A program made the translations under genes and the position numbers. From assembly GCA_903847405.1 (NCBI GenBank), contig CAINDP010000248.1, forward strand, positions 1-32,796: a stretch of 32,796 nucleotides of DNA. Reading direction: 5' to 3'. The DNA is from an uncultured Myxococcales bacterium (lineage in GTDB: Bacteria; Myxococcota_A; UBA9042; DTJE01). Shown here one piece after another: positions 1 through 29,579 of the stretch. Within the stretch, counting starts at the first letter, position 1. Each line of letters starts with the position of its first letter. The notes under the pieces are model-generated. The model ran no database searches. It saw only the letters and a list, made by a program, of their open reading frames with translations, and was not told the DNA's origin.

Positions 1-681
1 GTCGTCATGGCCGCGGGCAACCTGGAGGAGGACCACGCCATCGTGTCGCCGATGTCGTCGGCCCTGTTGAACCGCTTCGCGCACCTGTCGTTGCGGGCCG
101 ACGCCGACGCATGGGTGCGGTGGGCGAACAAGGCCGGCGTGCACGAGGCGGTGGTTGCCTTCATTGCCCGGGAGGGGGAATCGGCGTTGTACGAGGCGCC
201 GGGGGACGGGCCCTTCCCGACTCCGCGGTCGTGGGAAATGACCAGTCGGGCGCTGGCGACGGCCCGGCCCGAGGACCGGCGGCGCGTGGTGGCGGCGTGC
301 GTGGGGACGAAGGCGGCCGAGCGCTTCTTCGCGTTCCTGATGCTGTACGAGCGGGTCGATCCGCGGGGCATCGTCGAGCGCGGCGATCCGATGGACTTCA
401 CGTTGGAGGGTGCGACGGATCCGTCCTTCGCGCAGGCCTGTGTGCATACGGTGGCGTCGTGGGTCGCCCGGGGCGGCGAACTGGACGACGCCTTCCTGCC
501 GAACGTGGTGCGCTTCTTGCGCTCGCCGGGCCTGGACGTCGAGTTCGCGTTCCTGTTCCTGCGGCGCCTGAAGGGGCGGGGGAACCTGCTGGTGCGCCTG
601 CGGGCGTTGCCGGAGTTCCGCGAAATGGCGGCCGCGATCTGCGCCGTGCACGTGGGCCTGGAAGGCGCGGGGGTCGCATGA
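1..681 (+). CDS. MoxR-type AAA+ ATPase, C-terminal part (5' end outside window)
   Basis: The reading frame is open from the first base and the methionine at base 7 is internal, so this is the last ~226 residues of a longer protein. It opens with VVMAAGN, the beta-4/sensor-1 strand of a AAA+ fold with its Asn, followed by LLNRFAHL, where the Arg fits the arginine-finger position of MoxR-like ATPases. Walker A and B would lie upstream. The remaining ~150 residues are helical and fit the AAA+ lid and a family-specific C-terminus. MoxR ATPases usually act as chaperones for VWA-domain partners, and the next gene, overlapping by 4 bp (ATGA), encodes exactly such a protein. Substrate unknown; the subfamily call is made from the C-terminus only. 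Confidence 0.75.
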   Translation, partial: VVMAAGNLEEDHAIVSPMSSALLNRFAHLSLRADADAWVRWANKAGVHEAVVAFIAREGESALYEAPGDGPFPTPRSWEMTSRALATARPEDRRRVVAACVGTKAAERFFAFLMLYERVDPRGIVERGDPMDFTLEGATDPSFAQACVHTVASWVARGGELDDAFLPNVVRFLRSPGLDVEFAFLFLRRLKGRGNLLVRLRALPEFREMAAAICAVHVGLEGAGVA

Positions 682-1997
682 AGCGCGTCCGGGACGAACG
701 GAAGGACTTTGAACGCGAGCACCGGCGCATCGCGACGGTCCGGATGCAACTGCTGCAGCACCACCCCTTCTGGGGCTACCTGCTGCTGGATGCCGAGTTT
801 CGGCCCTCGCCCGACCTCCCGACCCTGGCGGCCACCGACGGCGTTCGGCGCATCTGGTACAACCCCCGCTATACCCGGTACCTGCCGTACCGCGAACTGG
901 GGTTCGTGCTGCTGCACGAGATTGGCCACGTGGTGATGGAAAGCCTGGCGCGCCGCCGCGACCGGGAGCACGGGCGCTGGAACCTGGCGACCGACTACGC
1001 GATCAACCGGATGGTGGCGTCGATCCTGGAACCGGGGCGTAGCATGCGGCCCATGTACCAGATTCCGCGGCGGCACATCCCGGGCCTTGGGGACCTGCGG
1101 CCGCCCCTGCACGATCGCTACGACGACATGACGGCGGAAACCATCTTCGAGTCCCTGGGCGAGGACGACATCGCCGACTGGCCCCGTGGCGAACTCGACC
1201 TGGAATACGGCGAGGACGGCAGCCTGGGCCTGCCACAGCCCCCGGCGCCCGATCGGCGGATGGGGCGCCTGGTGCGGGTGTCCGAGGACGTCGGTCGCCT
1301 GGACCTGCACGTACCGCCGGAGGCGCTGGAACCCGCGGACGGCGACGATATCGGGGATCGGGCGAAGGAACGGGTGCGTCGTGCCGCCGAGCACGCGACC
1401 TCCCTGGACCAGGCCGGCGACGTGCCGGGCGACGTGCGGCGGGCCTTGCAGCCGAAAGGCAACGAGGAAGTCCCCTGGTGGGAACTGCTGCGCGAGCACC
1501 TGGGCCGCTCGATCCAGCGGGACGACTTTTCCCGGGCCCGCCCCAACCGCCGGTGGATGGCCTACGACCTCGTGATGCCCTCGCTGCGATCCGACCGTCC
1601 CGGCGACGTGATCATCGCCCTGGACACCTCGGCCAGCATGCGGCTATCCGATCTGGCCGCGGTCGGCCGAGAGATCCGCCCCCTGCTGAAACTGGCCGAG
1701 GAAGCGATCCTGGTGGTCCACGACGCCGCGATCCAGGAAATCGTCCGCGGCTCCGCCGACATCCTCAAGTGGCTGGCCGCCGGCTACGCGAAGGGCGGCG
1801 GCAGCACCGACCACCGCCCGGTGTTTGAATGGCTGGCGCGCGAAGGGTTGGAGCCGGACGTGTTCGTGGGTTTGACGGACCTGGAATCGTGGTTTCCCGA
1901 CCGCGCCCCGCCGTGGCCCTGCATCTGGGTGGTGCCGCTACGGGCGTGGAAGCACAAGGTGCCCTGGGGCACGCGGGTGGACGTGATGCCGGTTTGA
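678..1997 (+). CDS. DUF2201-type metallopeptidase-like protein with C-terminal VWA-like domain
   Basis: Encodes 439 residues. The N-terminal part carries HEIGH at residues 80-84, a zinc-peptidase-like HExxH motif in a helix context (LLHEIGHVVM), as in the putative metallopeptidase domain of the DUF2201 family. A charged linker (about 170-260) leads to a VWA-like domain beginning DVIIALDTSASM; D316, S318 and S320 form a DxSxS metal-binding MIDAS motif. The ATG overlaps the stop of the upstream MoxR-type gene, so the two are translationally coupled. MoxR-VWA pairs are a recurring two-component chaperone or remodelling unit whose substrates are mostly unknown. Whether the HExxH is catalytic here cannot be told. 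The C-terminus ends in VDVMPV. Confidence 0.85.
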   Translation: MKRVRDERKDFEREHRRIATVRMQLLQHHPFWGYLLLDAEFRPSPDLPTLAATDGVRRIWYNPRYTRYLPYRELGFVLLHEIGHVVMESLARRRDREHGRWNLATDYAINRMVASILEPGRSMRPMYQIPRRHIPGLGDLRPPLHDRYDDMTAETIFESLGEDDIADWPRGELDLEYGEDGSLGLPQPPAPDRRMGRLVRVSEDVGRLDLHVPPEALEPADGDDIGDRAKERVRRAAEHATSLDQAGDVPGDVRRALQPKGNEEVPWWELLREHLGRSIQRDDFSRARPNRRWMAYDLVMPSLRSDRPGDVIIALDTSASMRLSDLAAVGREIRPLLKLAEEAILVVHDAAIQEIVRGSADILKWLAAGYAKGGGSTDHRPVFEWLAREGLEPDVFVGLTDLESWFPDRAPPWPCIWVVPLRAWKHKVPWGTRVDVMPV

Positions 1998-2038
1998 GGA
2001 GACGTCGTGGACACCTTTCATCCACGCAAATCGCACTG

Positions 2039-4543
2039 ATGCTCTACTATCCCTCGATGTCATCGACGGTAATTCCATCCAGCGTCGCTTCTCTCGGGGT
2101 GGCAATCCACGATCGCGGCTTTCCGGGCATGGCCAGTCAACAGACCTGCGCCCCGTTCCTGTTCGACGGGCATCTGGTCCTCGGAAAGGGACCCGCGAAC
2201 AGGCGGGTGCTGGCCCGGATCTCGCTGCAGGCGGTAAACGGGGTCGAGGCATACTCGAAGCCCGTGTCGAAGGAGCATAGACAAGGGCACGGTTGCATTG
2301 TGTCCGTGCTGAAAGCAGGCATCCTCGCTTCGGCCGGCCTGTACATGGGCGGGCCGGTCGGGTGTTTGATCGGCTTGTTCGTCGCGGTCGCCTGGTCGGT
2401 GGCAGGCAGCAGGAAGCCACTCCCGCCCAACTGGTTCATTCGCGTGTCATGGCTGGAAGGCGAAGTCACTCGAGCAGCCCACCTGAAGGTCATCAATCCA
2501 TACGGCGTAGAACGGCACGCGTACAAGGTCGTGAAGGCGATCTTGAAGGCGGCCCGGGAGACCCCGCGTGCAACAGGCGCGCCTGTGCCAGAGAACATCG
2601 CGATGGCACCGATGAAGATGCCAGCGCTCCCTGCCGAGAACAGTGGGAAGCGCGGAACGCGGTCGAAGGCCGTCGAGCGTCAGACCGAGGCCCGCCCCAA
2701 CGCCTCACCTCTCTACCGCAAGCAGTTCGCCCACCAGGTTCGCTGGAAGGAAGTGGTTGCGGGAGTCAAGGATCGCGGCAGCCACAACGGGGAGCCCCGG
2801 AGTTACCTGTTCCCGCCGGATCGCTGGGAAGAGAACCTCCTGCCGACCTACCGCCCGGACGTGCTGGCGCACCTGGCGAAGCACGGAATCCAACGGCACG
2901 ATTTCGCCCACCACGTCATGTCGTCGCAGGTCTTCGCGTTGAACCTCGCGGCACCATTCTTCCGCCGCCCGGAGTTGTTGACGCCCGTAATTGGCGACGC
3001 GGCCCTGGATGGCGTGATCCGGGTCGAGGCCGAGGTCATCGGCGACTGCAACTACCTGAACGAGCCCGGCGGCCGAGGTTCGATGCGGACCAGCGCAGAC
3101 CTCGGCATCTGGATCCGGATGAAGAACGGAGGGACCCACCTGACCCTGATCGAGGTGAAGTTCACGGAACGCGGGTTCGGAGAGTGCCGGAAGGGCGCGG
3201 TACGCGGAGGGCCCTGCAATTGTGACGGGGCCGCGATCGTCCGAAGCCGGGGCACACTCTGCCCTCTCTCGGCTCCCCCGCACAACCGACTCTACTGGAG
3301 GCTCATGTTCGAATTGGACGTGTTCAAGGAAACGGAACTCCTCAAGTCGCGGGCCTGTCCGTTCCGGCATGGGGGGTACCAGTTGATGCGCAACCAGGTC
3401 TTGGCGCGAGCCATCGAAGCCGATCCCGCCAGCGGGATCGACCGCGCCGACTTTGCGACCCTGTTGCACGATGACAACGAAGCGATCCAGGGATTCCTGC
3501 ACCCCATCGCAGGGTCCGACCGGCTTCAGGCGGGTTGGACGGGCGTCCTCAGGCAACCCAAGAAGTTCATGGTTCTAGACGCCAGGCGCTGGGTCACCGA
3601 CTTGGGCCGGAACCCAGAACTTGCCTCATGGGCGCGGACCATGAACGAGCGATACTTTCCATACCCATCCGCGGTGGACGACGCCGGGGATGAGGTGGAA
3701 GCCTCGTCACCGCCCAGGCGCGCCACCGTTTCGAGATCGAAAGAGCCGGTCGTTGCGGCGAAGTCCAAGGCGGCCCAACCGGTCCTGGTCGCGCCGATTG
3801 CTCCGTCCTTCGCCCTCCGTCCCGGGCACGTCAAGACCTTGGAGTGGCTGGCGTCGCCCGAATTCGCCGAGGTGAAGCGATTGCACGATCGCGTCATCGG
3901 ATTCGGAGGCGTCTATTTCCGGCCGACCGACAAGGGTGTCGTGGTGATCGTGCTGGACGGACGTGCGCCGGGGTACGTGGGCTTCCGGACGTCGCGCAAG
4001 GACAGCGGATACCTGCTGACGCCGGGAAGGGCGGGTGCCTTGGACGAACAGCATTTGCGCGACCGCTACCAGGCGTTCCAGGTGTGGCTTCAGACGGTGG
4101 GAGGCAGTTCGGTCGAAGAACAGGCGGTCATCCCTTGGCTCAGACGAGCCTTGCAGAACGAACTGGTCTTGTCCGGACTGCCCCGGTCGGGCGGCGACTG
4201 GGTGTTCCTGAACCAGGAATGGCGGTTCCAGCGAGGCGATGGCGTCGGCAAGAAGAGCGATGTCATCGCGGTCAACGCGAGAACCGGCCAGATCGGCATC
4301 ATCGAAGCCAAGAGCAGCGCTTCCAAACGTGCAGAAGCCGTGGCTCAGGTCTGCGAGTACGGTCGATACTGGAAGCGTGACGCCCAGGAACTGGCGCCGT
4401 TCTTCACCCGACTCCTGCGTGCCATGGGTTCCCTGTACGGAAACTCCTGGGCCTCCACGGGCACCGTGTCCGATTCGCGGGCCGCGCTCTTCTTCGCGTA
4501 CCCCGGGAGCTCGGGAAACATGAAGGTTGAGGAGGTTGGGTAG
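2039..4543 (+). CDS. Membrane-associated protein with two PD-(D/E)XK nuclease-like domains
   Basis: Encodes 834 residues from the first ATG after the VWA gene; ATGs at 2057 and 2129 are alternatives and none has a clear ribosome-binding site. Residues ~88-122 form a hydrophobic, Gly/Ala-rich membrane segment. The middle (about 260-570) resembles PGN_0703-type putative restriction endonucleases: SSQVFALNLAAPF, then D354 followed by IEVK (E372, K374), a Cys-containing stretch, and ACPFRHGGYQLMRN. A Lys/Ala/Ser linker near 590 leads to a second module with D741 and IIEAK (E756, K758), again a PD-(D/E)XK core. Family knowledge points to DNA cleavage, possibly defence. Two nuclease-like cores behind a membrane helix is unusual. 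It follows the MoxR-VWA pair by 41 bp and may share its transcript. Confidence 0.7.
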   Translation: MLYYPSMSSTVIPSSVASLGVAIHDRGFPGMASQQTCAPFLFDGHLVLGKGPANRRVLARISLQAVNGVEAYSKPVSKEHRQGHGCIVSVLKAGILASAGLYMGGPVGCLIGLFVAVAWSVAGSRKPLPPNWFIRVSWLEGEVTRAAHLKVINPYGVERHAYKVVKAILKAARETPRATGAPVPENIAMAPMKMPALPAENSGKRGTRSKAVERQTEARPNASPLYRKQFAHQVRWKEVVAGVKDRGSHNGEPRSYLFPPDRWEENLLPTYRPDVLAHLAKHGIQRHDFAHHVMSSQVFALNLAAPFFRRPELLTPVIGDAALDGVIRVEAEVIGDCNYLNEPGGRGSMRTSADLGIWIRMKNGGTHLTLIEVKFTERGFGECRKGAVRGGPCNCDGAAIVRSRGTLCPLSAPPHNRLYWRLMFELDVFKETELLKSRACPFRHGGYQLMRNQVLARAIEADPASGIDRADFATLLHDDNEAIQGFLHPIAGSDRLQAGWTGVLRQPKKFMVLDARRWVTDLGRNPELASWARTMNERYFPYPSAVDDAGDEVEASSPPRRATVSRSKEPVVAAKSKAAQPVLVAPIAPSFALRPGHVKTLEWLASPEFAEVKRLHDRVIGFGGVYFRPTDKGVVVIVLDGRAPGYVGFRTSRKDSGYLLTPGRAGALDEQHLRDRYQAFQVWLQTVGGSSVEEQAVIPWLRRALQNELVLSGLPRSGGDWVFLNQEWRFQRGDGVGKKSDVIAVNARTGQIGIIEAKSSASKRAEAVAQVCEYGRYWKRDAQELAPFFTRLLRAMGSLYGNSWASTGTVSDSRAALFFAYPGSSGNMKVEEVG

Positions 4544-4629
4544 CGGGAGTAGTTCACCTCGAGCGAAGACGCCTGGGGGCGGTTGCCTACAGGTTCCCCC
4601 TTGGACCGTGTTCGTCAACTGATCGCCAG

Positions 4630-4974
4630 CTAGCGGAGAACAATGACCGAACCGCGAACCCCGGCGGCTCGCAGACCTTGTTTCACCTGGTCTGCGACCG
4701 CCTGTTCCGCCTCCCCCGGCAAGATCGTGGCGAAGAAGCCTTTGACTCCACCAACGCCCGAAGCGTCCACGTTGTGGACCTCGATCACGCCACGCGAGGC
4801 GATGCGCACGGTCGCGCGGACTCCGCGCGATGCGAGGGTGGATGAGACTTGCTCTGCAACCTTCTTGTCCACCTTGGCGTGGACGTCCATTCCCAGAAAC
4901 GAAGCGATTCGGGAGCCAGTCGGGGACGACTCTTTCGCCAGGGTCAAGTGATTGTCGAACCTGATGCGAATCAT
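4630..4974 (-). CDS. Small hypothetical protein (114 aa), last gene of the GTPase cluster
   Basis: Encodes 114 residues beginning MIRIRFDNH. The start is chosen because GGAG lies about 10 bases upstream, whereas the longer frame back to 5034 would overlap the neighbouring gene. The sequence alternates short beta-like segments (VRATVRIASRGVIEVHNV) with amphipathic helices and has no signal peptide or membrane helix. I do not recognise a family. The repeated pattern of a helix rich in Val, Ala and Gln (KKVAEQVSSTLASRG, then AVADQVKQGLRAAG) followed by a strand suggests an internal duplication. It is transcribed in line with the two GTPase genes and is convergent with the nuclease-like gene ending at 4543. 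Confidence 0.65.
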   Translation of the reverse strand: MIRIRFDNHLTLAKESSPTGSRIASFLGMDVHAKVDKKVAEQVSSTLASRGVRATVRIASRGVIEVHNVDASGVGGVKGFFATILPGEAEQAVADQVKQGLRAAGVRGSVIVLR

Positions 4975-5023
4975 TCCAACTTCTCCAAATGAGAACCGGG
5001 ACGCTGTGCTCGGCGAAATTGTG

Positions 5024-5284
5024 CTACTTGCCATTGAACAAGCGATAGATGCCGTAGCCCGCTAGCCCGGCGAGTGCACCCACAGCTGCGCCGATCGGGC
5101 CCGCGGCCGCTCCGACTCCGGTTCCCGCACCGACCATGCCGGCAGCGGTCATGCCGGTCGCCGCGATTGCGCCGTAGCCAGCAGCTGCCCCGACCCCGGT
5201 GGCCCCCGCCGCTTTGGCTGCTTCCCATGTGCGATCATCCTTCCTCGCCACTTTCCACTCCTCGTCTTCAAGATCCACACGCAT
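5024..5284 (-). CDS. Small glycine-zipper membrane protein
   Basis: Encodes 86 residues (MRVDLEDEEW) from an ATG; a TTG two codons upstream (5290) is possible. After a charged 25-residue N-terminus (KVARKDDRTWEAAKAAG) nearly everything is Gly/Ala/Val with GxxxG spacing, ending in YGIYRLFNGK. This is the pattern of glycine-zipper proteins, whose hydrophobic helices pack or oligomerise in membranes. It lies between a 164-residue membrane protein and the 114-residue protein in the GTPase cluster, so it may be a membrane partner of the GTPases. That role is inferred from context only. Confidence 0.7.
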   Translation of the reverse strand: MRVDLEDEEWKVARKDDRTWEAAKAAGATGVGAAAGYGAIAATGMTAAGMVGAGTGVGAAAGPIGAAVGALAGLAGYGIYRLFNGK

Positions 5285-5320
5285 TCCCAAGAGCTGCCGA
5301 CACCAGAATTGAGCTCGTCA

Positions 5321-5815
5321 TCAGTCCAGGAACCTCCAGAGACCGATGAGAGTGCCGCCGGAAAGGACGAGCATCACTCCGGTCCAGACGATGACTCTCA
5401 AGGCGGTCTTCCCGCCCGTGTCGACGACCTTCTCCAGTGCTTGGCCGCCTTCCGCCACCACCCTTCCGAGCACTTGTCCGCTATCGGCAACCACTTCTCG
5501 CAGGGCCAGCTTCCCCTGATCTAGAACGGGGGCGACTTGGTCCTCCAGGAACCTCACTTTCCGGAAGTGGTGGTGCTGCCCCTTCGCTTGGAAAAAGACG
5601 AACGTGCTACTCCCGTAAGCTGTCTTCGGATACTCCGCGAGCTCTCTGCCGTGCAATGTGAATGCGCGTAGGTCGTACCAGACGTACTCGCAGGGCAGGT
5701 AGCCGATAGCTCCGGGTTCCACTTGATCCTCGGCGATCTTGATCCCTGCCCATCGCAAACGGGCCAGGATAGGAGTGCCGGTGTCGTTCCTGATAGTCAT
5801 GCACGTCGAGGCCAC
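5321..5815 (-). CDS. Hypothetical protein with beta-rich N-terminus and C-terminal membrane helix
   Basis: Encodes 164 residues from a GTG start with GAGG six bases upstream; an ATG five codons later (5800) is the alternative. The first ~90 residues look like a beta-sandwich (TIRNDTGTPILARLRWAGIK, DLRAFTLHG). Then comes an amphipathic stretch in which the pattern VVADSGQVLGRVVAEGGQAL repeats, and a single C-terminal transmembrane helix (VIVWTGVMLVLSGGTLIGLW) leaves only a few residues beyond. The layout suggests a tail-anchored protein exposing its N-terminal domain to the cytoplasm. Only 8 bp separate it from the GTPase gene upstream, so co-transcription is very likely. No family recognised. 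Confidence 0.75.
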   Translation of the reverse strand: MASTCMTIRNDTGTPILARLRWAGIKIAEDQVEPGAIGYLPCEYVWYDLRAFTLHGRELAEYPKTAYGSSTFVFFQAKGQHHHFRKVRFLEDQVAPVLDQGKLALREVVADSGQVLGRVVAEGGQALEKVVDTGGKTALRVIVWTGVMLVLSGGTLIGLWRFLD

Positions 5816-5823
5816 GTTACCCC

Positions 5824-6759
5824 TCAGTTCGTGGATTTCAGCGGCTGTTCATTCCGCGCCTGCGTGTACTCTTTCTTGAGTTCATCGACGTTCATCTTCA
5901 TGTCGCTCCGGCACCAAGCCTTCGCCGCCTTGCCGACCGCAAAGGTGATCGAGGAAGCGATGGCGATCTTCGCCCCCGGAATGAACGAAGCGAGCACCAG
6001 ACCGGCGAACGACGCGCCAATCGAGGCAATGAAACCCCTGACCATCGAGTCCGTCAGTTCAAGTCCGTAGTTCGATCCGAGTTGCTTCACCATATAGATT
6101 TCGTTCGCGATCAACGGGTATATGTCCGCAAGCGGAACAGGCACCACGGCAATCGCCGCAGCGCGACCCGTGGCCCATCGTACGATGGAATTGGCCTCCG
6201 TATCCATTCGCGCAGTGATCTCCGGAGTGCGCTCCGCAAGGAATCTGGCGAGACGGAGGTCATCTCCATTCCGCACGGTCAAATTGACCAGCAAGTTCGA
6301 AAGTAGATCCAAGCCTTCCCCGGTCCTCGTACTGGTTTCGATGCTGTGCGCTGACTTGAGCGATCCGCGCAGTTGACCGAAAACCTGGCGCGCCGATTCA
6401 CGATCCGCGTCAACCTTGTTGCAGACCAGAATCACGGGCCGCGTCGTCGCCGCCAACTGCTCGTGGCAGCCAGCAACGGACTTAGTCAATCCTTCGTTTG
6501 CATTTACGATGTGTACGAAGACGTCGCTTTCGCCGAGGAAGTCAAAGGTCTTCGCCGCGACAGCCGCCTCGACGTCTTCAAGTCCAGGTGTATCGGCGAT
6601 GAATACGTCGTTCCCGAGAGGGTATTTCTTGACCTCCTTTGTCCAGCCTGCAACTGGAGATACATCCGCCAACTTCTTCTTCAGCAGGCGATTGCACAGG
6701 GACGATTTTCCGGCATTCACTTTTCCGATCAGCGTCACAACGATGGGAGTAGCATCCAT
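5824..6759 (-). CDS. Era/Der-like GTPase with DUF697-like hydrophobic C-terminus (paralogue 1)
   Basis: Encodes 311 residues. The GTPase domain shows G1 GKVNAGKS (12-19), a candidate switch-I Thr in AGWTKEV, G3 DTPG (56-59), G4 NKVD (114-117) and a G5-like region ETSTRTGEG. The last ~110 residues are hydrophobic (AAAIAVVPVPLADIYPLIAN, then IASIGASFAGLVLASFIPGA) and resemble DUF697/YcjF-type membrane-associating domains found behind Era-like GTPases. The ATG overlaps the stop of the upstream GTPase by one base (TAATG), so the pair is translationally coupled. The two proteins share AGWTKEV and TPGLEDV and clearly arose by duplication. Probable role: GTP-dependent remodelling or signalling at the membrane; partner and effector unknown. 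Confidence 0.88.
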   Translation of the reverse strand: MDATPIVVTLIGKVNAGKSSLCNRLLKKKLADVSPVAGWTKEVKKYPLGNDVFIADTPGLEDVEAAVAAKTFDFLGESDVFVHIVNANEGLTKSVAGCHEQLAATTRPVILVCNKVDADRESARQVFGQLRGSLKSAHSIETSTRTGEGLDLLSNLLVNLTVRNGDDLRLARFLAERTPEITARMDTEANSIVRWATGRAAAIAVVPVPLADIYPLIANEIYMVKQLGSNYGLELTDSMVRGFIASIGASFAGLVLASFIPGAKIAIASSITFAVGKAAKAWCRSDMKMNVDELKKEYTQARNEQPLKSTN

Positions 6760-7889
6760 TAGTTCACCGACCGCTTGTTTTTGTTCTCGCGCATGAACTC
6801 TTCTGCAGCCTGCCGGAACACCTCCTGCAGGTCCTCCATGGAGGTCTTCATTCCAGTTTGGTAGTAGATTTTTGCCGCCTGCCCAAGCCCAAAGGTCATG
6901 CTTGCAGCGGTAAGTCCTGCGGTGCCAGCCGCGATGGCCTCGCCCCAAGGACCACCAACCCACCCGAAGAGTTTAAGCGCCGCGCGAAAGAGCATCTTCC
7001 CGACGCGTCCGGCGGCGATCTCTGTGATGAACGGGAGGATATCCCTACGCGTCGCTTCGACACCGTAGGCGTTTGCAATCCTTATAGCGAGTCCAACCTG
7101 CAGGGCCGTGAGCGGGATCGAATCCGAGAAGGGTAGAGGGATCACGCCAAGACCGAACGCGATTCCGGTCGCGCCCCAGATCCACTTGTCGATGATCGCG
7201 TCCTTGTCCCTGACGAGTTTGGCGAAAAGAAGATCTTTGCCGTTTTCGGCGAGGATTGTGGCGATGCCGGCATTCAACTGCGGGATGCCGTCGAGCGTTC
7301 TCGCGGAAACAGGGAACATCAGGTCGTCAGGGGTCAAGCCGAGCCGCTGCCGAGTGTCAGAAAGCTTGATACGCCGCCATTCCTCGGGCGTGTCGTCGTC
7401 TTGCTGTGTCGCCAAATCCATCTTGTTCAGAACGACGACGACCGGTCGTCCCGACGCCTTCATGTTAGCCAGTGTGTCCCGGTACGGACGGGTCGCGCCG
7501 ACATCGGCGTTCACGACGAGAAGTACGATATCAGCGTCCTTCTCGATGAACTTCTCCGTCCTGGCGGACACATCGGAGTTCACGTCCTCAAGCCCAGGGG
7601 TATCCGCGATCATGATGTTCGGCATATGGGGAATCGGGAAGAGTTGGACCTCTTTGGTCCAACCGGCGATCGGCTTCACATCAGCATATTTACAGCCGGT
7701 CATTGCGTTGATCAGCTTCGACTTTCCGGAGTTCACTGAACCAAGCAGGCTGATCACGAGACGCTGCTGAAGCGCGCTCTGCGCTTTCTTCGCCTCCTCG
7801 TCGAACAATTGCTCCGCATTCTCCTCTGCTCGTGAGAAGTCCACCTGATTCTCGAAAGTAGGATCTGTGCTGACGAAGTCAGTGGTCAT
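6759..7889 (-). CDS. Era/Der-like GTPase with DUF697-like hydrophobic C-terminus (paralogue 2)
   Basis: Encodes 376 residues. The ATG is preceded by GGGGAG seven bases upstream, which decides the start over the longer frame. A 45-residue acidic helical N-terminus precedes G1 GSVNSGKS (50-57); then AGWTKEV, DTPG (96-99), NKMD (155-158) and a G5-like VSART. The C-terminal ~150 residues are hydrophobic (GATGIAFGLGVIPLPFSDSI, then AIAAGTAGLTAASMTFGLG), DUF697-like, ending in a short amphipathic helix. It is longer than its neighbour at both ends. Its start overlaps the end of the small membrane protein gene upstream by 11 bp. Two adjacent, non-identical GTPases suggest a heterodimer, which is inference. 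Confidence 0.88.
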   Translation of the reverse strand: MTTDFVSTDPTFENQVDFSRAEENAEQLFDEEAKKAQSALQQRLVISLLGSVNSGKSKLINAMTGCKYADVKPIAGWTKEVQLFPIPHMPNIMIADTPGLEDVNSDVSARTEKFIEKDADIVLLVVNADVGATRPYRDTLANMKASGRPVVVVLNKMDLATQQDDDTPEEWRRIKLSDTRQRLGLTPDDLMFPVSARTLDGIPQLNAGIATILAENGKDLLFAKLVRDKDAIIDKWIWGATGIAFGLGVIPLPFSDSIPLTALQVGLAIRIANAYGVEATRRDILPFITEIAAGRVGKMLFRAALKLFGWVGGPWGEAIAAGTAGLTAASMTFGLGQAAKIYYQTGMKTSMEDLQEVFRQAAEEFMRENKNKRSVN

Positions 7890-8178
7890 TGATTCGCTCC
7901 CCAGTTTGCGAGTTTCGTGCAGGTATGGCAGGTCCACGGTCACCATGTCCGGAGCCCTCAGGTTTCGGGGTCGCAAGTTTGGCTTCGGCGACGGACAGTA
8001 GGGCATCGAGCCCCTTCAACCCTAACCGGAATCGGTCGAGCGCCTGCTGACGTGCGGATGCCGGTTGCGGGGCGCTCGCCCGGCGAATTACGTAGATTCC
8101 GATAAGGGTCAGTACGACAAGGTCGAACAAGACCAAGTTGGCGAGTGCCACCCAAACGAGGGCCTCTGTCCCGTCCAT
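7879..8178 (-). CDS. Small single-pass membrane protein, first gene of the GTPase cluster
   Basis: Encodes 99 residues from ATG at 8178; a TTG at 8238 would add 20 residues but would place the start inside the probable -35 box, so the ATG is preferred. Residues ~6-30 (LVWVALANLVLFDLVVLTLI) form one transmembrane helix, followed by an Arg-rich cytoplasmic region and a helix (QALDRFRLGLKGLDALLSVA). The end is disordered and overlaps the GTPase start by 11 bp. No family recognised. Its place at the head of the cluster suggests a membrane anchor or receptor for the GTPases. Confidence 0.65.
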   Translation of the reverse strand: MDGTEALVWVALANLVLFDLVVLTLIGIYVIRRASAPQPASARQQALDRFRLGLKGLDALLSVAEAKLATPKPEGSGHGDRGPAIPARNSQTGERINDH

Positions 8179-8244: not shown

Positions 8245-9897
8245 CTAAGTGACCAACCACAACGCGTCCAGCCCCAGTTCCCTTGCGACCCGCACAGCCT
8301 CCGAAATCCGATGCACAATGGGCATCCCCCGCGTGTTGAACGAGGTGTTGATGACACCCTGAACGCCGTATCGGTGGCGCAAGGTCCGAAGCACCTGATG
8401 GATGTGGTCCAGTTGGGGGGCATGTTCGTCCACGATCTGCGCCCTGACCGTCCCGTCGGCATGAACGCAACCTTCGAATGGCGCCAGCCAGCCGGGGGCC
8501 AGGGGCCACGCCCCCAGCATGAAACGTCCAAGGGCGCTTCCATCGACGTACCCCACCAACGCCTCTCGTGCGACTTCCGGCAGAAGCATGGGCGCCACGG
8601 GTCGATACCACTCCCGCTGCTTCATGTCCTCGCTCAACCGACGTCTCAGCGACACGGAATCCGGTCGGGCAAGCAGGCTGCGGTGCCCCAGGGCGCGGGG
8701 CCCGACCTCCGCGTCGCCCGCCCAGACGCCGATGATCTTGCCGTCCGCGATGGCCTTGGCTGCCTCGTCGGGGGTGCGCAGAATGGGCACGCCGGCCGCT
8801 GCGATCGCGGGCGATTCGATGGGCACCGTGTTCAGGAAGGGCGAGTGCGGCCGAACGTCGTGACCCGCACGCCACTCCAGGAACGCGGCCGCTCCCAGCG
8901 CCAGCCCCGCATCGCTGGGGGCCGGTGGGATGCTGACCGACTCGAAGCCCAACTCCTGTTCAATGCGGACGTTGGCGTGGATGTTCAGCGCCGCGCCGCC
9001 CGAGTAGTACAGGTGACGCGCCCCGGTGCTGGCCCGATGCGTTCGGATGTACGCGAGGACCTCCTCCTCGAAGTGCCGCTGCATGCACGCGGCCAGAACC
9101 TGGCTGCCACGATCGCGAGGCGAGAAGGCGACAAGGGGCAAGCCGGGAAGGCCACGTTGCAACGCGGCGCAGGCCTCATCCCTGAACAGCGAACCGTCCC
9201 GCATCCACGCGTGCCGCGTCAGCCATTCGGTGGTGGCCAGGTCCGGCCGGCCGAAACTCGCCAGGCCCATCAACTTGCCCGGCATGCTCAGGTGGTCCTT
9301 GGCATCCAGCCCGAGGATCCAGCGGGACAACGGACTGTCGTTGAAATTGTTCGCCGCACCTTTGAGGCCCGCATGCCACCCGTGATCCAGGCAGGTGACT
9401 TGCCGGCCATCCCAATACCAGGCGCTGGCGCAGGAGCGGGAGGCTCCCCCATCCACGTGGATCAGTAGGCTGTTGGAGGGGAAGGGTCCGAAAAAGGGCA
9501 GGCCGGTGGCCACGTGCGCCATCTCGTGGCAGATGGTGTAGAAGCGCGCGGGATGGGGCGTCCCCTGGATCTTCAGTCGTCCGCGGCACTCGGCCAGGAT
9601 CTCGGGGACCTCCAGGTCGCCGGCCCCGGTGATCTCGAGCATGCCGCGGGCAGAACGAAAATCGCAGCCCGTAAACGAGTTGACCAGGACGATCTGGACG
9701 GGCTCGCCGGGCCGAAGCAGGGACCCAACGAGATCCTCGAAATGCGCATCCAGGGCGCCGTCGTGCTTGCGGCCGGTGTGGCGCTCCAGCTCCTGGCAGT
9801 AGACCACGCGCCCGTTTTCCATGACGGCGACGCCGTGATCGTGGGACGTGCCGTCGGCATCCCGACCCGGGACCCCGTGAAGGCCAATCGTCAGCAT
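8245..9897 (-). CDS. NodU/TobZ-family O-carbamoyltransferase
   Basis: Encodes 550 residues, normal for the family. Known members make carbamoyl-adenylate from carbamoyl phosphate and ATP in a YrdC-like domain and transfer the carbamoyl group to a hydroxyl, often of a sugar or natural product, in a Kae1-like domain. Visible motifs: HEMAH (the HxxxH metal site), LLIHVDGGAS, LYYSGGAALNIHAN, PPAPSDAGLALGAA, and in the C-terminal domain GDAEVGPRALGHRSLLARP and VINTSFNTRGMPIV, all hallmarks of the family. Its start overlaps the end of the phosphatase gene by 7 bp, so it is the last gene of the four-gene unit. The acceptor is unknown; a sugar or peptide made by the upstream glycosyltransferase-radical SAM protein is the natural guess. 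Confidence 0.92.
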   Translation of the reverse strand: MLTIGLHGVPGRDADGTSHDHGVAVMENGRVVYCQELERHTGRKHDGALDAHFEDLVGSLLRPGEPVQIVLVNSFTGCDFRSARGMLEITGAGDLEVPEILAECRGRLKIQGTPHPARFYTICHEMAHVATGLPFFGPFPSNSLLIHVDGGASRSCASAWYWDGRQVTCLDHGWHAGLKGAANNFNDSPLSRWILGLDAKDHLSMPGKLMGLASFGRPDLATTEWLTRHAWMRDGSLFRDEACAALQRGLPGLPLVAFSPRDRGSQVLAACMQRHFEEEVLAYIRTHRASTGARHLYYSGGAALNIHANVRIEQELGFESVSIPPAPSDAGLALGAAAFLEWRAGHDVRPHSPFLNTVPIESPAIAAAGVPILRTPDEAAKAIADGKIIGVWAGDAEVGPRALGHRSLLARPDSVSLRRRLSEDMKQREWYRPVAPMLLPEVAREALVGYVDGSALGRFMLGAWPLAPGWLAPFEGCVHADGTVRAQIVDEHAPQLDHIHQVLRTLRHRYGVQGVINTSFNTRGMPIVHRISEAVRVARELGLDALWLVT

Positions 9898-11243
9898 CGG
9901 CCGCCCTCCCGGATACCCGCGAAACGGCGGAAGGCGGTCGTGGCCCCCGGGTTCTTCACCAGGCAGACGCCCTCCAGGTAGGTGCACCAGTCGCTTCGAT
10001 CCGGTGCCTTCAGGCCCAGGTAGCTCATCAGTGCGGCCGAGAAGAAGTCATGCGTGACGAACACCGTGCAGTCGGCTTCGGCCACTTGTTCGTCGAGGAA
10101 CGCCAGCAACTGTTCGGAGGCTTCGGGAATGGGCCGCATGCCGAGGGCCAGGCCGCTGTCCAGATAGCCGCCCGCGAACGCGTGGAAGTCGGTTCGCATC
10201 AGTTCCGAATGGACGCCCGAGCCGTCGAAGTAGATGCCGGGTTCCCCGAGGTGGGTATGGGTGCGGATTTCCGAGGCGCCCGACCCCGCCCCCCGCGCGA
10301 TCGCCTCGCCGGTCTGCCTGCAGCGATTGACCGGGCTGGACCAGATCCCGAACCGGACGGTTCCCGCAAGTTCCTGGCCGAGACGCGTCGCGTCGGCGAT
10401 TCCCCGTTCCGTCAGGAGGACGTCGTTCCCCCAGTTGGGGGTTTCGCGGGTGATGGGATCGCGCTCCGCGTGGCGCAGGAAGAGGCCGATCCTGGTCCCC
10501 TGGCCGAGGAGACTGCGGATCTCGGCGAGCGTGATGGGCTCGAGGCTCGCGGCGACGTGGGTCCAGGTGCCGTTGACGCGTAGTCGCAGAAACCCGCCGT
10601 CCCATCCCCGGCACAGGGCCACGCCGTTGTAGAACGGCTCCGCGGCCTGGAATCGCTGCGGGTGAATCGGCCTGCCCGTTCTGTCCACATGGTGGAACCC
10701 ATGCTCGTCGGCGACGACGGCGTGTCCCTTGTGGAACGGTTCCGCGTGGACGTATGTGGCCGTGTTCAGCGGTTCCCCATTCTTCCGTATGTGGAGGGCG
10801 CCGCCAGTCCCGTGGGCGACGGCCACGCCGTTGCGGAAGTCCCCCGCGTACCGGAACCGCAAGGAATAGGCGTCCGCACCCGAAGCATCGACGTGGAAGA
10901 ACCCGCGCTGGTCCTGCACGGTGCAGCGGCCATCCTGGAAATTGCCCGACCAGCGGAATCGCCGCTCGTGGATGGGGCTCCCGTCCACGCGGATGTGGAA
11001 CCATCCGCGCCCGTCCCGCACGGCCGCCACGCCTTCGTAGAACCCGCATGCCTCCAAGAAGCGGAACGTGTACCGCGGGTTCGCGTCGAGGTCCACGTGG
11101 TACGCGCCCGTTTCGTCCCGGACCGCGGCCAGGCCTTCCGGGGCATGGAAGCTCATGGCCGCCTGGAACACCTTCCCCTTCCAGGGATCGCCATCCAGCA
11201 GGAACCCCGTTCCGGACTCGTTCAGCGTCGGGTGGTCAGTCAT
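9891..11243 (-). CDS. WG-repeat protein fused to histidine phosphatase domain
   Basis: Encodes 450 residues. The start at 11243 is preferred over 11249 because GAGGAGG lies six bases before it. Residues ~15-235 are about five repeats of ~40 residues with the pattern F-x-G-x-A-x-V-x-D-x-x-G-x-x-H-I/V-x-x-x-G-x-P (for example GVAAVRDGRGWFHIRVDG), matching WG/KWG beta repeats. Residues ~250-450 are a histidine phosphatase (phosphoglycerate mutase superfamily) domain: LFLRHAER at 255-261 with the catalytic His, WSSPVNRCRQTGEAI, and VFVTHDFF with the second His. It probably removes a phosphate from a metabolite or modified product, the WG repeats serving as a binding scaffold. Translation is coupled to both neighbours by overlaps (8 bp and 7 bp). 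Confidence 0.85.
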   Translation of the reverse strand: MTDHPTLNESGTGFLLDGDPWKGKVFQAAMSFHAPEGLAAVRDETGAYHVDLDANPRYTFRFLEACGFYEGVAAVRDGRGWFHIRVDGSPIHERRFRWSGNFQDGRCTVQDQRGFFHVDASGADAYSLRFRYAGDFRNGVAVAHGTGGALHIRKNGEPLNTATYVHAEPFHKGHAVVADEHGFHHVDRTGRPIHPQRFQAAEPFYNGVALCRGWDGGFLRLRVNGTWTHVAASLEPITLAEIRSLLGQGTRIGLFLRHAERDPITRETPNWGNDVLLTERGIADATRLGQELAGTVRFGIWSSPVNRCRQTGEAIARGAGSGASEIRTHTHLGEPGIYFDGSGVHSELMRTDFHAFAGGYLDSGLALGMRPIPEASEQLLAFLDEQVAEADCTVFVTHDFFSAALMSYLGLKAPDRSDWCTYLEGVCLVKNPGATTAFRRFAGIREGGRC

Positions 11244-13494
11244 TGGCATCCTCCTCGACCGGGCGTCTCATGTTGCATTTCAGGCAGTTCGGGTGGCGGC
11301 CCCAGCCTTCCACGAAGTCCCGGTACCGGAGTGACGTCCACAGATCCATGAACGGTGCGTCGAGCACGCTGCCGAATTCGCCGAAGGCCTTTCGTTCGCC
11401 GCGGGGACAGCAGCAAACCTGGAATGTGCCGTCGGCCTCGATCCACGCTTCCCGTCCGAGGAACGGGCATCGGGTCGCGGTGCCGTCACGAGGCTCGCTG
11501 TCGAGCCGGATCGGCTCCACGTTTTCCAGCCGGATCCGCTTGCCGTTCGGCGCCGTTTCGTGCTCGGCGATTTCTCGGAGGACATCGACCATCCGGTTCC
11601 ACCTTGCGGCGGCCTCGTGGGATCGCCGCAGGGATTCCGCTTCCATCTGCGGCCAGGTCACCCAGAGCTGGTGCCCCTTGAAACGGTCGAGCCCGTTCGC
11701 GATGGCCCAGCGGAGCAGGCGGGGCAATTCCTCCAAGGTGCTTTCCATGAACGTCGCCTGGACAGTGGCGGTGCTGGTCTGGCCTGTCTCGGTTTCGCGC
11801 CGGCATTTCAGTTCGAGGTACCGCCGGATGTTCTGGAGTTGCAGCCGCGCGCCTGCTCCGGGCATGACCCGCTCGGCCACGGCCGGTTCGATCGCGTTGA
11901 CGCTGAACTTGACGTCGGACACGACGGGCAGGAGGGCGGCCGTCCACGCATCGACACCCCCGCGACCCGGGAACGTGCCGTTGGTGGTCAGGTTGACCTT
12001 GACCCCGGTGCGGGCCGCCAGTTCCAGCAGCCGCCGGAAGTCCGGATACAGCAACGGCTCCCCCATGGTCGAGGGCAGGATCTCCTGCAGGCCGCGCTGG
12101 GCCAGTTCCAGGACGACGCGTTCCACGACGTCGAAATCCAGGAGCGGCAACTCCTTCGGGTCGGCCGATGCATAGCGGCTGTGCGTGTCGCACATGGGGC
12201 AATGCAGGTTGCACAGGCCCGGGTTCGTGACGAAAGTGACGCGTCGAGGCGCCGGGCACATCGGGAGAGCGGGCGTGCGGCGGGTCCCGGCCAACCCCTG
12301 GTAGACAGCGACGCACGCCTCGGCGTCGTCCGCGATGGTCCTCACGCTGCCCCGGTCGGGCTTGAGGGCGCCCAGGCGACCCGGGTCGTCCATCACACGC
12401 TGCAACAGGCCGCGGAGCGCCCCCACATCGCCCAGCGGGAAGAGGAAGCCGTTCCTGCCGTCCTGTACCAGTTCGGCCATGCCGCCGGCGTCGGACGTGA
12501 TCACGGGCAACTCCGCCAGCAGGGCCTCCTGGATCACCAGCGGCGAGTTCTCCAACCAGAGGGAAGGCGCGACCAGGAGGTCCATGTCGTCCAGGGCTTC
12601 CTGGATCTGGCCATTGTGGTATCCCCCGCGAAAGGTTACCCGCGGGTCGTTGCCGCAGAGTGCGTCCAGCCATCGCCTGTCGGAACTCGCATCGCCCCAC
12701 ACGTCCAACGTGGCCCGACCTTGCGTCGCGTGGAAAGCCTCCAGGAGAACGTGGATTCCCTTGCACGGGATGACGCGCCCCAGGAAGCCGAAGCGCAAAG
12801 GCCCGGCGACCCGCGGTGTCTTTCGCGGCGTGATGCGGTTCACGTCGAACCCGTAGGGAGAAAAGATGACCTTCTGTTCCGGCACGCCCTGGTTCCGGAA
12901 GAACGTGGCCACGGTGCGCGACGGCGCGAGGCAGACGTCCAGGTGTTCGACGACGTCCCGAATGTGTCGCAGCCGGGCCTCCACCTGGCCTTGGTCGATC
13001 CACTCTTTGAAGAAGTGCCTGGAGCAATCCAGGCAGGCCGCGACGGAGGGCCCGTCGCAAAGTCCGCCGTCGGGCCGCACCAACTGTCCGCGGAAGCAGT
13101 ACATCCAGAAGTCGTGGATCGTCAGCACCGTCGGGATCCCGAATTCGGCCCGGGCGATTGCTGGCAACTGCGTGGACAGGTGGGACAGATGGCCGAAATG
13201 GACGACGTCCGGCTTCGTCTTCCGCAGCATGGCGCGGAAGGCCTCGTCGACGCGGTGGTCGAGGTACTTGTCGCGGAACGTGTAGTCGCGCCCGGGCTTG
13301 TTCAGCCGCCGCACGAACACGCCGTCCTCCAGCGAGTCGGTGGTCCGGTAGGGTGCGGCGTAGGGGTTCTCGATGCGCGTGAACACGGATACCTGATGGC
13401 TCCCGGTCAAATGCCGGGAGAGGTTCCAGGTGTAGACCTCCGAGCCGGCCATGTACTGTGGCGGGTAGCCGTGGATGACCTGCAGGATCTTCAT
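11236..13494 (-). CDS. Glycosyltransferase family 4 - radical SAM/SPASM fusion protein
   Basis: Encodes 752 residues. Residues 1-~405 are a GT-B, family 4 glycosyltransferase: MKILQVIHGYPPQYMAGSEV, FSPYGFDVNR, LRFGFLGRVIPCKGIHVLLE and the E-x7-E nucleotide-sugar motif (E315 to E323) followed by VITSDAGGMAELV. Residues ~415-752 are a radical SAM enzyme: C428, C432 and C435 in CNLHCPMCD bind the [4Fe-4S] cluster, and a Cys-rich C-terminus (CPFLG, CCCPRG, CLKC) fits a SPASM-type auxiliary cluster region. The start ATG overlaps the stop of the upstream gene (ATGA) and has GGAG upstream. One polypeptide would transfer a sugar and do radical chemistry on the same or a related substrate; SPASM proteins often modify peptides. 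No precursor peptide was identified nearby. Confidence 0.88.
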   Translation of the reverse strand: MKILQVIHGYPPQYMAGSEVYTWNLSRHLTGSHQVSVFTRIENPYAAPYRTTDSLEDGVFVRRLNKPGRDYTFRDKYLDHRVDEAFRAMLRKTKPDVVHFGHLSHLSTQLPAIARAEFGIPTVLTIHDFWMYCFRGQLVRPDGGLCDGPSVAACLDCSRHFFKEWIDQGQVEARLRHIRDVVEHLDVCLAPSRTVATFFRNQGVPEQKVIFSPYGFDVNRITPRKTPRVAGPLRFGFLGRVIPCKGIHVLLEAFHATQGRATLDVWGDASSDRRWLDALCGNDPRVTFRGGYHNGQIQEALDDMDLLVAPSLWLENSPLVIQEALLAELPVITSDAGGMAELVQDGRNGFLFPLGDVGALRGLLQRVMDDPGRLGALKPDRGSVRTIADDAEACVAVYQGLAGTRRTPALPMCPAPRRVTFVTNPGLCNLHCPMCDTHSRYASADPKELPLLDFDVVERVVLELAQRGLQEILPSTMGEPLLYPDFRRLLELAARTGVKVNLTTNGTFPGRGGVDAWTAALLPVVSDVKFSVNAIEPAVAERVMPGAGARLQLQNIRRYLELKCRRETETGQTSTATVQATFMESTLEELPRLLRWAIANGLDRFKGHQLWVTWPQMEAESLRRSHEAAARWNRMVDVLREIAEHETAPNGKRIRLENVEPIRLDSEPRDGTATRCPFLGREAWIEADGTFQVCCCPRGERKAFGEFGSVLDAPFMDLWTSLRYRDFVEGWGRHPNCLKCNMRRPVEEDAND

Positions 13495-27411: not shown

Positions 27412-27486
27412 GCGCCTGTAGCTCAGCCAGGACAGAGCAGCGGACTTCTAATCCGCCGGTCGAAGGTTCAAATCCTTCCAGGCGTA
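27412..27486 (+). tRNA. tRNA-Arg(TCT)
   Basis: 75 bases; acceptor arms GCGCCTG and CAGGCGT (one G-T pair), discriminator A, anticodon arm CGGACTTCTAATCCG with TCT, T-arm GAAGGTTCAAATCCTTC. CCA is not encoded. First of three tRNAs behind one promoter. Confidence 0.95.
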
Positions 27487-27537
27487 CCCAGTTTCCGTCT
27501 TCCGCCTCGGCGGCGGGCGGGACGATCACCCTTCAAT

Positions 27538-27613
27538 GGTACCTGTAGCTCAGGGGTAGAGCGCCGGATTGTGGATCCGGTGGTCGTGGGTTCAAATCCC
27601 TCCAGGTACCCCA
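27538..27613 (+). tRNA. tRNA-His(GTG), CCA encoded
   Basis: Acceptor arms GTACCTG (27539-27545) and CAGGTAC (27603-27609), with the His-specific extra G at 27538 opposite C at 27610, followed by an encoded CCA (27611-27613). Anticodon arm CCGGATTGTGGATCCGG contains GTG. Confidence 0.95.
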
Positions 27614-27669
27614 TTGTTCCGGGACCCCGACGTCCCGGCGCACCTCCTCGCTGTCCGCACTTCGTCCCC

Positions 27670-27742
27670 GCGCCCGTGGCTCAATGGACAGAGCATCGGA
27701 CTTCGGATCCGACGGTTGGGGGTTCGAGTCCCTCCGGGCGCG
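27670..27742 (+). tRNA. tRNA-Arg(TCG)
   Basis: 73 bases; acceptor arms GCGCCCG and CGGGCGC, discriminator G, anticodon arm TCGGACTTCGGATCCGA with TCG, T-arm GGGGGTTCGAGTCCCTC. CCA is not encoded. Its last ~46 bases are repeated in broken form at 29490-29579. Confidence 0.95.
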
Positions 27743-27743
27743 C
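27698..27743. repeat. Direct repeat, left copy (attL-like, within tRNA-Arg)
   Basis: The anticodon arm to the 3' end of tRNA-Arg(TCG) recurs at 29490-29516 (27 identical bases) and 29561-29579 (19 identical bases), split by a 44-base insertion. The two copies flank the AbiE gene pair, as left and right attachment sites flank an element integrated at a tRNA 3' end. Confidence 0.75.
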
Positions 27744-27792
27744 CCTGCGTAATTCCACGATGTTGCCCGTCGAAGATCGCCTCTGGCTGCGC

Positions 27793-27839
27793 GTTGACTT
27801 TACGAATATCACATTTTTCGTTACTTTCATGAAGTCAAC
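27793..27839. promoter_or_regulatory. Nested inverted repeats upstream of abiEi, likely AbiEi operator
   Basis: Outer arms GTTGACTT (27793-27800) and AAGTCAAC (27832-27839) are perfect complements; inside lie ACGAA (27802-27806) and TTCGT (27817-27821). The left arm contains TTGACT, a likely -35 box, and the region is strikingly AT-rich for this genome. AbiEi antitoxins are known to repress their own operon by binding inverted repeats in the promoter, which fits this position 13 bases before the start codon. Confidence 0.6.
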
Positions 27840-27852
27840 ACGCAGGAACGCC

Positions 27853-28638
27853 ATGACCGGTCCCTCCTTTCTCCAGCAGATGGCCGCGAGCGGTCGCTAC
27901 CACTTCACGATGCAGGACGCGATGAAGGCGCTGGGGGCATCGGTTGTCGCCGTGCATGCGGTGCTGCGGAGGCTCAAGAAGCAGGGCCTTCTGGCAATGC
28001 CCGTGCGCGGCTTCTACGTGATCGTCCCGCCGGAGTATCGGTCCCTGGGATGCCTGCCGGCCGAGCAGTTCGTCCCGGCCTTGATGGACTTCCTGGACGT
28101 ACCCTACTACGTCGGCCTGCTCAGCGCGGCCGAACGGCACGGAGCCGCCCACCAGCGGCCCCAGGAGTTCCAGGTCGTGACCAGTCGCAACCGCGCGCCC
28201 CTGGTTAGCGGCAGTGTGCGGGTGGCCTTCGTGGCCCGCGGGAACGTCCGCGACGTGCCCACCGTCACCCTGAACAGCCCGCGAGGGTTCCTGAGGGTTT
28301 CGACTCCGGAGGCAACGGCGCTGGACCTGGTCACCTATCCCGAAAAGGCTGGGGGACTGGACACCGTCGCCACCGTCCTGGCCGAACTGGCCGAAACCCT
28401 CGATGCCCGGGCCCTCGCGGACGTTGCAGCCCGGGTGGGCGAGGTGCCCGCGGTCCAGCGCCTGGGGCATCTTCTGGACGCGGTGGGTGGCGGGTCCCAG
28501 ACCGCTTTCCTGGCCGACCTTGTCGCGAACCGGGCTCGCCGGGTCGTTCGCCTGGTTCCCGCTGCGCCGCTGTCAGGAGCGCCGCTTGACGCACGGTGGC
28601 GCGTCCGGGCCAATGCGACGATCGAGGTGGACGAATGA
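27853..28638 (+). CDS. abiEi: AbiEi-family antitoxin (type IV toxin-antitoxin)
   Basis: Encodes 261 residues. The start at 27853 has AGGA five bases upstream; an earlier in-frame ATG at 27829 lies inside the operator and is rejected. Residues 1-~65 form a winged helix-turn-helix (TMQDAMKALGASVVAVHAVL then RRLKKQGLLAMPVRGFYVIV). The central part (PYYVGLLSAAERHGAAHQRP, then FQVVTSR) and STPEATALDLVTYPEKAGG match the C-terminal antitoxin domain of AbiEi proteins. The family neutralises AbiEii without direct protein binding and autoregulates transcription. The stop overlaps the toxin start (ATGA). The module starts 110 bases after tRNA-Arg(TCG). Confidence 0.88.
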   Translation: MTGPSFLQQMAASGRYHFTMQDAMKALGASVVAVHAVLRRLKKQGLLAMPVRGFYVIVPPEYRSLGCLPAEQFVPALMDFLDVPYYVGLLSAAERHGAAHQRPQEFQVVTSRNRAPLVSGSVRVAFVARGNVRDVPTVTLNSPRGFLRVSTPEATALDLVTYPEKAGGLDTVATVLAELAETLDARALADVAARVGEVPAVQRLGHLLDAVGGGSQTAFLADLVANRARRVVRLVPAAPLSGAPLDARWRVRANATIEVDE

Positions 28639-29480: not shown

Positions 29481-29579
29481 GCGCCCCCGGGACTTCGGAT
29501 CCGACGGTTGGGGGTTGCGGACTCGCCTGCGGCGAGTTGCAGACTCGCCTGCCGCGAGTTCGAGTCCCTCCGGGCGCGC
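29481..29579 (+). pseudogene. Broken copy of tRNA-Arg(TCG) (attR-like)
   Basis: It begins GCGCCC like the real gene, then lacks about 22 bases covering the D-arm. It resumes with 27 bases identical to the anticodon and variable-loop region (29490-29516), is interrupted in the T-loop by 44 foreign bases, and ends with 19 bases identical to the T-arm and acceptor end (29561-29579). It cannot fold as a tRNA. It is best read as the displaced original 3' part left at the far end when the AbiE segment inserted at the intact copy. Confidence 0.75.
29517..29560. repeat. Tandem 22-bp hairpin repeat inside the tRNA remnant
   Basis: Two adjacent 22-base units (29517-29538 and 29539-29560) differ at two positions. 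Unit one contains ACTCGCC-TGC-GGCGAGT, a perfect 7-bp hairpin; unit two has the same hairpin shortened by one pair. Each unit ends in GTT, matching the T-loop bases at the break. Confidence 0.85.

Follow-up and report, generated by a model that had tools for sequence, protein, structure and literature searches.

The window, meaning the whole stretch of 32,796 nucleotides analysed here from an uncultured Myxococcales bacterium, opens with a MoxR ATPase gene and a gene with DUF2201_N and DUF2201 regions (hereafter the VWA gene). Both lie directly upstream of a gene for a protein with two putative PD-(D/E)XK nuclease cores, which is on the same strand and is located 41 bases from the VWA stop (Table 1).

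Table 1. Positions in the window of the nuclease gene, its domains and predicted catalytic residues, and the two genes upstream.
Feature	Position	Strand	Basis
MoxR ATPase, truncated by the contig start to its C-terminal part	1..681	+	context, outside the system
DUF2201_N (putative metallopeptidase) and DUF2201 (VWA-like) gene	678..1997	+	Pfam; context, outside the system
Possible 10-codon leader ORF	2007..2039	+	GTG start, GAGGAG about 5 bases upstream, read from sequence
Putative double PD-(D/E)XK nuclease, 834 aa	2039..4543	+	translation, third-position GC, Pfam
Hydrophobic stretch, residues 85-121, possible membrane hairpin	2291..2401	+	hydropathy only
Middle nuclease domain, residues 232-540, REase-ARP PF22558 / PDDEXK_13 PF20796	2732..3658	+	Pfam; nuclease core in a low-confidence model
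Catalytic D354 ... E372-x-K374 of the middle core	3098..3160	+	invariant in 54/54 aligned relatives
C-terminal nuclease domain, residues 576-834, NucS/Shedu-like fold	3764..4540	+	profile searches, predicted structure
Catalytic D741 ... E756-x-K758 of the C-terminal core, then Q770/Y774	4259..4312	+	invariant in 10/10 aligned relatives

The frame from 2039 to 4543 is open, and the six residues attributed to the two cores in the preliminary description (D354, E372, K374, D741, E756 and K758) are present at the positions claimed. Third-position GC favours this frame over about 2040-4560 (0.73-0.86 as against 0.42-0.71 in the other two frames) and, since it does so from about 2040, the N-terminal part of the protein is coding as well. 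The start itself is uncertain and may lie anywhere from 2039 to about 2129. A start downstream of the hydrophobic stretch had been named as an objection to the membrane segment; all of these candidates lie upstream of the stretch, throughout which the frame is coding. The TGA of the leader ORF overlaps the nuclease ATG at 2039 (TGATG), and this ORF may represent a reinitiation leader or the sign of a frameshift at the nuclease start. A loose PD-(D/E)XK motif pattern occurs twice in the protein and never more than once in any other of the 25 gene calls of the window. However, two occurrences were reached in 1.6% of 2000 shuffles, making the pattern weak by itself, so that the case for two cores is carried by the conservation of residues. 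The pattern also matched unrelated neighbouring genes and was thus distrusted as a sole test of them.

The middle domain matches REase-ARP (E 1.2e-30, 107.6 bits) and PDDEXK_13 (E 8.3e-11, 42.2 bits), the curated Pfam cut-off being 27 for each; these are the models found for the region that the preliminary description had likened to PGN_0703-type nucleases. Among its relatives, D354, E372, K374, N302 and Q448 are identical in all 54 aligned rows, which represent loci of one phylum, uncorrected for relatedness; three of the 57 genes, in which the match spanned less than about 150 residues, were left out of the alignment. The model of the N-terminal and middle regions, built from only three sequences, is of poor quality on average (pLDDT 37.9), its core blocks reaching about 62-85. 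The best structural matches of this low-confidence middle-domain model were Nt.BspD6I (5liq, Z 7.2), PaqCI (7.1) and FokI (6.4), as against Z 3.4-5 for unrelated folds, and the predicted core thus resembles the cleavage domains of these enzymes. PDDEXK_13 matches are found in 73 of 377 myxococcal genomes, mostly once per genome. Searches with the window's middle domain gave no relatives among plasmids, and none were found for the middle domain among phages, while a plasmid search with the middle domain of G239 gave six records. No biochemical description of PDDEXK_13 or REase-ARP nucleases was found in the literature searched. At one other locus (L035:2466-4760, minus strand), a 764-residue REase-ARP protein carries a long C-terminal extension that may be PH/GRAM-like, and 42 bases upstream lies a gene whose product has a hydrophobic stretch at its N-terminus.

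Neither Pfam, PHROGs, NCBIfam nor PADLOC gave a significant match to the C-terminal domain (from about residue 576). Its profile matches 23 of the 377 genomes of the phylum, mostly by short matches over the catalytic motif, with full or near-full matches in 11: to the family proper (C) in the window's own genome (G000), G067, G030, G094, G239, G044, G204, G177 and G354, and to a related family, C2, in G136 and G364 (97.1% in hhalign with C, 148 columns). A further family, C3 (G182, G246), aligns with C from the catalytic half onward (hhalign 94.4% over 102 columns) and was counted apart. The C domain also occurs in a metagenome-assembled genome named Ardenticatenales (L098), where the contig stops at the gene; no relative was found among viral contigs, nor among plasmids for the C domains of the window, G067 or L098. 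Y626, R628, P629, E693, R729, D741, E756, K758, Q770, Y774 and P787-F788-F789 are invariant in all ten aligned rows. The structural model, built from four sequences, has a mean pLDDT of 79.2, with most of the core at 88-95. In VIA-align it matched the anti-phage nuclease SduA (8ps4, Z 8.7, rmsd 3.2 over 121 residues) and the repair nuclease EndoMS (5gke, Z 8.7, rmsd 2.4 over 92 residues; 2vld, Z 8.5), values near 8 being only modest by that program's own note, and other nucleases fill most of the list. Foldseek gave no match below E 1e-3 (best Can2, E 7.8e-3), and a search of PDB sequences gave nothing significant for the whole protein, the best match of the C profile being NucS at E 0.12. The window's C domain had no match to the NucS_C profile at E 1, and its relatives matched NucS profiles weakly (best 17.4 bits against a cut-off of 24). 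On this modelling, the C-terminal core is predicted to adopt a nuclease fold resembling EndoMS/NucS and Shedu SduA. A nuclease core is thus present in the predicted fold of the C-terminal domain and, with less certainty, in that of the middle domain.

The two cores recur together. In six of the 11 myxococcal genomes with a full or near-full match, a REase-ARP domain is fused or adjacent to C or C2: the middle domain precedes C in the fusions of the window, G067 and G094, the order is reversed in the fusion of G030, and separate neighbouring genes are found in G239 (C then middle) and G136 (C2 then middle, with an ATGA overlap). A seventh pair, in G356 (middle then C2, the genes overlapping by several bases), was found through the PDDEXK_13 search and stands outside this count. 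Four genomes (G044, G204, G177 and G354) have the C domain but lack PDDEXK_13 matches altogether, which suggests that this domain can act alone; in G364, the C2 and PDDEXK_13 matches lie on different contigs, and near most middle-domain genes no second nuclease was recognised. Since PDDEXK_13 is present in fewer than a fifth of the genomes and mostly as one copy, chance adjacency would be very rare (estimated at about 1 in 10,000 per gene, with assumed gene numbers). Since the domains are joined in both orders among relatives, or encoded side by side, the two cores probably act together. The two PD-(D/E)XK cores first proposed from the letters of the sequence are thus borne out by profile matches, by fold, by the invariance of the catalytic residues and by the repeated fusion or adjacency of the domains.

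Other proteins occupy a comparable position. In G182, the gene after REase-ARP encodes a C3 protein, while on a Pimelobacter plasmid a relative of C3 is convergent to REase-ARP. In six loci (G346, G255, G086, G029, G130 and G104), the REase-ARP gene is directly followed by a member of a family designated cl9, which comprises unannotated proteins with a D-x-W...ELK motif and no Pfam match (L039:7041-7922, L044:7457-8425 and L045:7100-7912). This family and a neighbouring protein at L187 were considered as relatives of C and set aside: both have a PD-(D/E)XK-like motif, yet their hhalign values against C were no higher than 8.3% and 30.2%, respectively.

With about even confidence, the protein is read as a paired DNA endonuclease that combines both cores in one chain and belongs to a defence system. 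Since both active sites are kept, one chain could cut twice; most likely, the two cores would cut one strand each of the same DNA molecule, so that the chain, as a pseudo-heterodimer, would make double-strand breaks with no need of a second identical subunit. One core per strand would be the simplest reading, as in the heterodimeric R.BspD6I but within one chain. As the active sites are kept in all rows while the domain order is free, it is probably contact between the partners, and not their linear layout, that brings them together. The substrate would be DNA, and the use anti-phage or anti-plasmid. Alternatively, labour may be divided, with one core cutting and the other sensing DNA ends or structures or controlling activation. 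NucS and Shedu read DNA structure, and such a division would suit a C domain that is nearest to EndoMS/NucS and SduA in fold and is also found alone; it is nevertheless unlikely, as a pure sensor would be expected to lose some of its catalytic residues, whereas all aligned rows, fusions included, keep those of both cores unchanged.

The N-terminal region sets the window's protein apart from the other fusions, which have helix-turn-helix-like N-termini in its place (as read from sequence). No relative of residues 1-214 was found in the 51 other genomes of the class, and the region was modelled at pLDDT of about 21-36. The preliminary description had taken the protein to be membrane-tethered. 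The hydrophobic stretch exists, with a Kyte-Doolittle 19-residue mean of up to 1.83 at about residues 85-121, and this peak is the only sign of anchoring; it is weak evidence when taken alone, since 9 of 67 proteins of both families reach 1.6, mostly inside the nuclease domain. The fusions in G067, G094 and G030 all fall below that threshold. A membrane location, as far as hydropathy can suggest it, is thus possible but doubtful. The same stretch, together with the orphan character of the region, could be expected of a nuclease toxin that is delivered to other cells or acts on them and uses its N-terminal part for trafficking. This reading is very improbable, since Pfam and NCBIfam scans gave no secretion-linked domain, no immunity gene was recognised, the next three genes lie on the other strand, and the N-termini of the other fusions are of the helix-turn-helix-like type.

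A further suggestion, that MoxR, VWA protein and nuclease form a triad, is not supported. The VWA gene is found in 19 of 52 genomes of the class, sometimes in several copies, and the nuclease stands beside it in none of 20 other MoxR-VWA loci (two of these contigs end inside the VWA gene). The genes that recur around these loci encode MoxR, a small protein, a WYL regulator and a WHD-AAA-AAA protein, the last of these being the recurrent partner of the MoxR-VWA pair. Furthermore, nucleotide homology between the window and two sister copies in G030 ends at 1999-2010, at the VWA stop, and other genes follow the VWA gene there. It is accordingly very unlikely that the nuclease is anchored in the membrane, is switched by MoxR and the VWA protein and serves to destroy DNA entering the cell, an idea suggested by the strand and closeness of the nuclease gene and by the hydropathy peak. 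In G049 and G152, a REase-ARP gene does lie some 4 kb from a MoxR-VWA pair; however, these genomes belong to one genus, the gene is convergent with the pair and lies behind the WHD-AAA-AAA gene, and no other double-nuclease fusion adjoins MoxR-VWA. The middle-domain gene of G152 also adjoins a Fic gene. Separately, the small protein, MoxR, DUF2201 metallopeptidase-VWA and WHD-AAA-AAA protein, in several cases with a WYL regulator, form a patchy and sometimes multi-copy set (L078, L081, L083, L084, L086, L088 and L093), which looks like an uncharacterised conflict-type system.

Since the homology to the sister loci stops at 1999-2010, the nuclease gene is best seen as an insertion at this site. 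In line with this, G+C drops from 0.70 to 0.57-0.65 over positions 2001-8000 of the window, and third-position GC is also lower. The gene thus appears to have been acquired horizontally and inserted behind an unrelated MoxR-VWA pair. The same stretch of lower G+C holds two tandem GTPases (5824-8006, minus strand) with MMR_HSR1 and DUF697 regions, which show a PADLOC resemblance to LeoA/LeoBC over the GTPase part.

Defence genes accompany several relatives of the middle domain. WYL regulators stand beside it in G094 (Pfam), G118 (PADLOC), and G245 and G196 (read from sequence), restriction genes lie near it at L046 (by size and motif only) and L197 (by annotation), and ADP-ribosylglycohydrolase genes occur near relatives on a Roseomonas and a Pimelobacter plasmid. 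The region of a relative on a Nocardioides plasmid contains the DISARM gene drmC, while relatives on Polaromonas and Bacteroides plasmids have no such defence neighbour among the listed features. PADLOC has no model for the whole nuclease protein. Section 3.8 of one study (PMC9503650) proposes a REase domain as effector in ARG-centred systems, and the Pfam name REase-ARP presumably derives from the association with ADP-ribosylglycohydrolases in that study. The reversed fusion of G030, a member of the window's genus, overlaps the end of a gene for a 1349-residue protein (L032:7739-13773, minus strand) with a Walker A (P-loop) motif and a helix-turn-helix-like start; this protein, which has no match in PADLOC or PDB sequences, looks like a sensor ATPase. 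The candidacy for a defence against DNA entry put forward in the preliminary description is thus supported indirectly, by the neighbours of relatives. The same neighbours, together with the patchy spread (C profile matches in 23 of 377 genomes, weak short ones included) and the lower G+C, make it highly improbable that the protein is a NucS-like chromosomal DNA-repair nuclease with a restriction-type domain and no role in defence, to which the NucS-like fold of the C domain and the weak NucS matches of its relatives could otherwise point.

Extended to the other loci, the paired reading suggests, as a tentative proposal held with rather less than even confidence, a general two-core bacterial defence module. 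In such a module, a REase-ARP core would be combined with one of several second cores (C, C2, C3 or cl9), fused or neighbouring and often overlapping; each core would take one strand, and cleavage would need both. The sensors would vary, being WYL, the STAND-like P-loop protein of G030, ADP-ribosylglycohydrolase operons and, perhaps, the membrane anchor in the present case. In the literature searched, largely at listing level, no description of a paired nuclease module was found.

Elsewhere in the window, an AbiEii toxin-type nucleotidyltransferase (PF08843, E 1.3e-36; 28635-29456) is overlapped by an upstream gene for a 292-residue protein, and tRNA genes flank the region (27412-27745 and 29504-29579), so that positions 27760-29456 are likely to represent an AbiE toxin-antitoxin pair at a tRNA hotspot. 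An ORF6N-domain protein (PF10543), of a kind often linked to phages, is encoded at 29659-30207. On the minus strand, genes for a carbamoyltransferase, a WG-repeat histidine phosphatase and a fusion of glycosyltransferase and radical SAM-SPASM (8245-13494) form a possible modification cluster.

Each core has a counterpart among known nucleases, from which the whole protein differs. With REase-ARP/PDDEXK_13 proteins it shares a middle domain scoring above both curated cut-offs and the same invariant D...E-x-K and Q; it differs by the second nuclease domain and the orphan N-terminal region, and no ADP-ribosylglycohydrolase is found among the 16 of 25 window proteins scanned. The C-terminal core is like Shedu SduA in fold (modestly, as noted) and in being a D...E-x-K nuclease; however, Shedu has one nuclease domain per chain, the window's protein has no PADLOC SduA match at E 1, and its C domain has no Pfam match (DUF4263). 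To EndoMS/NucS the core is likewise modestly similar in fold, with weak profile resemblance in relatives, but the window's C domain falls below the NucS_C cut-off, has a family-specific N-terminal half with a Y-x-R-P motif and is paired with a second nuclease. R.BspD6I is reported to be a heterodimeric restriction enzyme whose two subunits differ and whose large subunit nicks by itself (PMC8533099, PMC6261011). The modelled middle core resembles both its large and its small subunit; in contrast to R.BspD6I, the window's protein has both cores in one chain and from different nuclease branches, and no sequence-specific recognition domain was found in it. The domain architecture appears to be new, including a nuclease family absent from Pfam, and the function assigned to it is putative.

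The MoxR-VWA association proposed at first can be dropped, and the analysis points to a nuclease family for which Pfam, PHROGs, NCBIfam and PADLOC gave nothing significant. If the paired reading is true, assays of a single middle-type protein could fail for want of the second core, and the PDDEXK_13 nuclease family, present in 73 of 377 myxococcal genomes, would gain an identifiable partner and an activity that can be tested.
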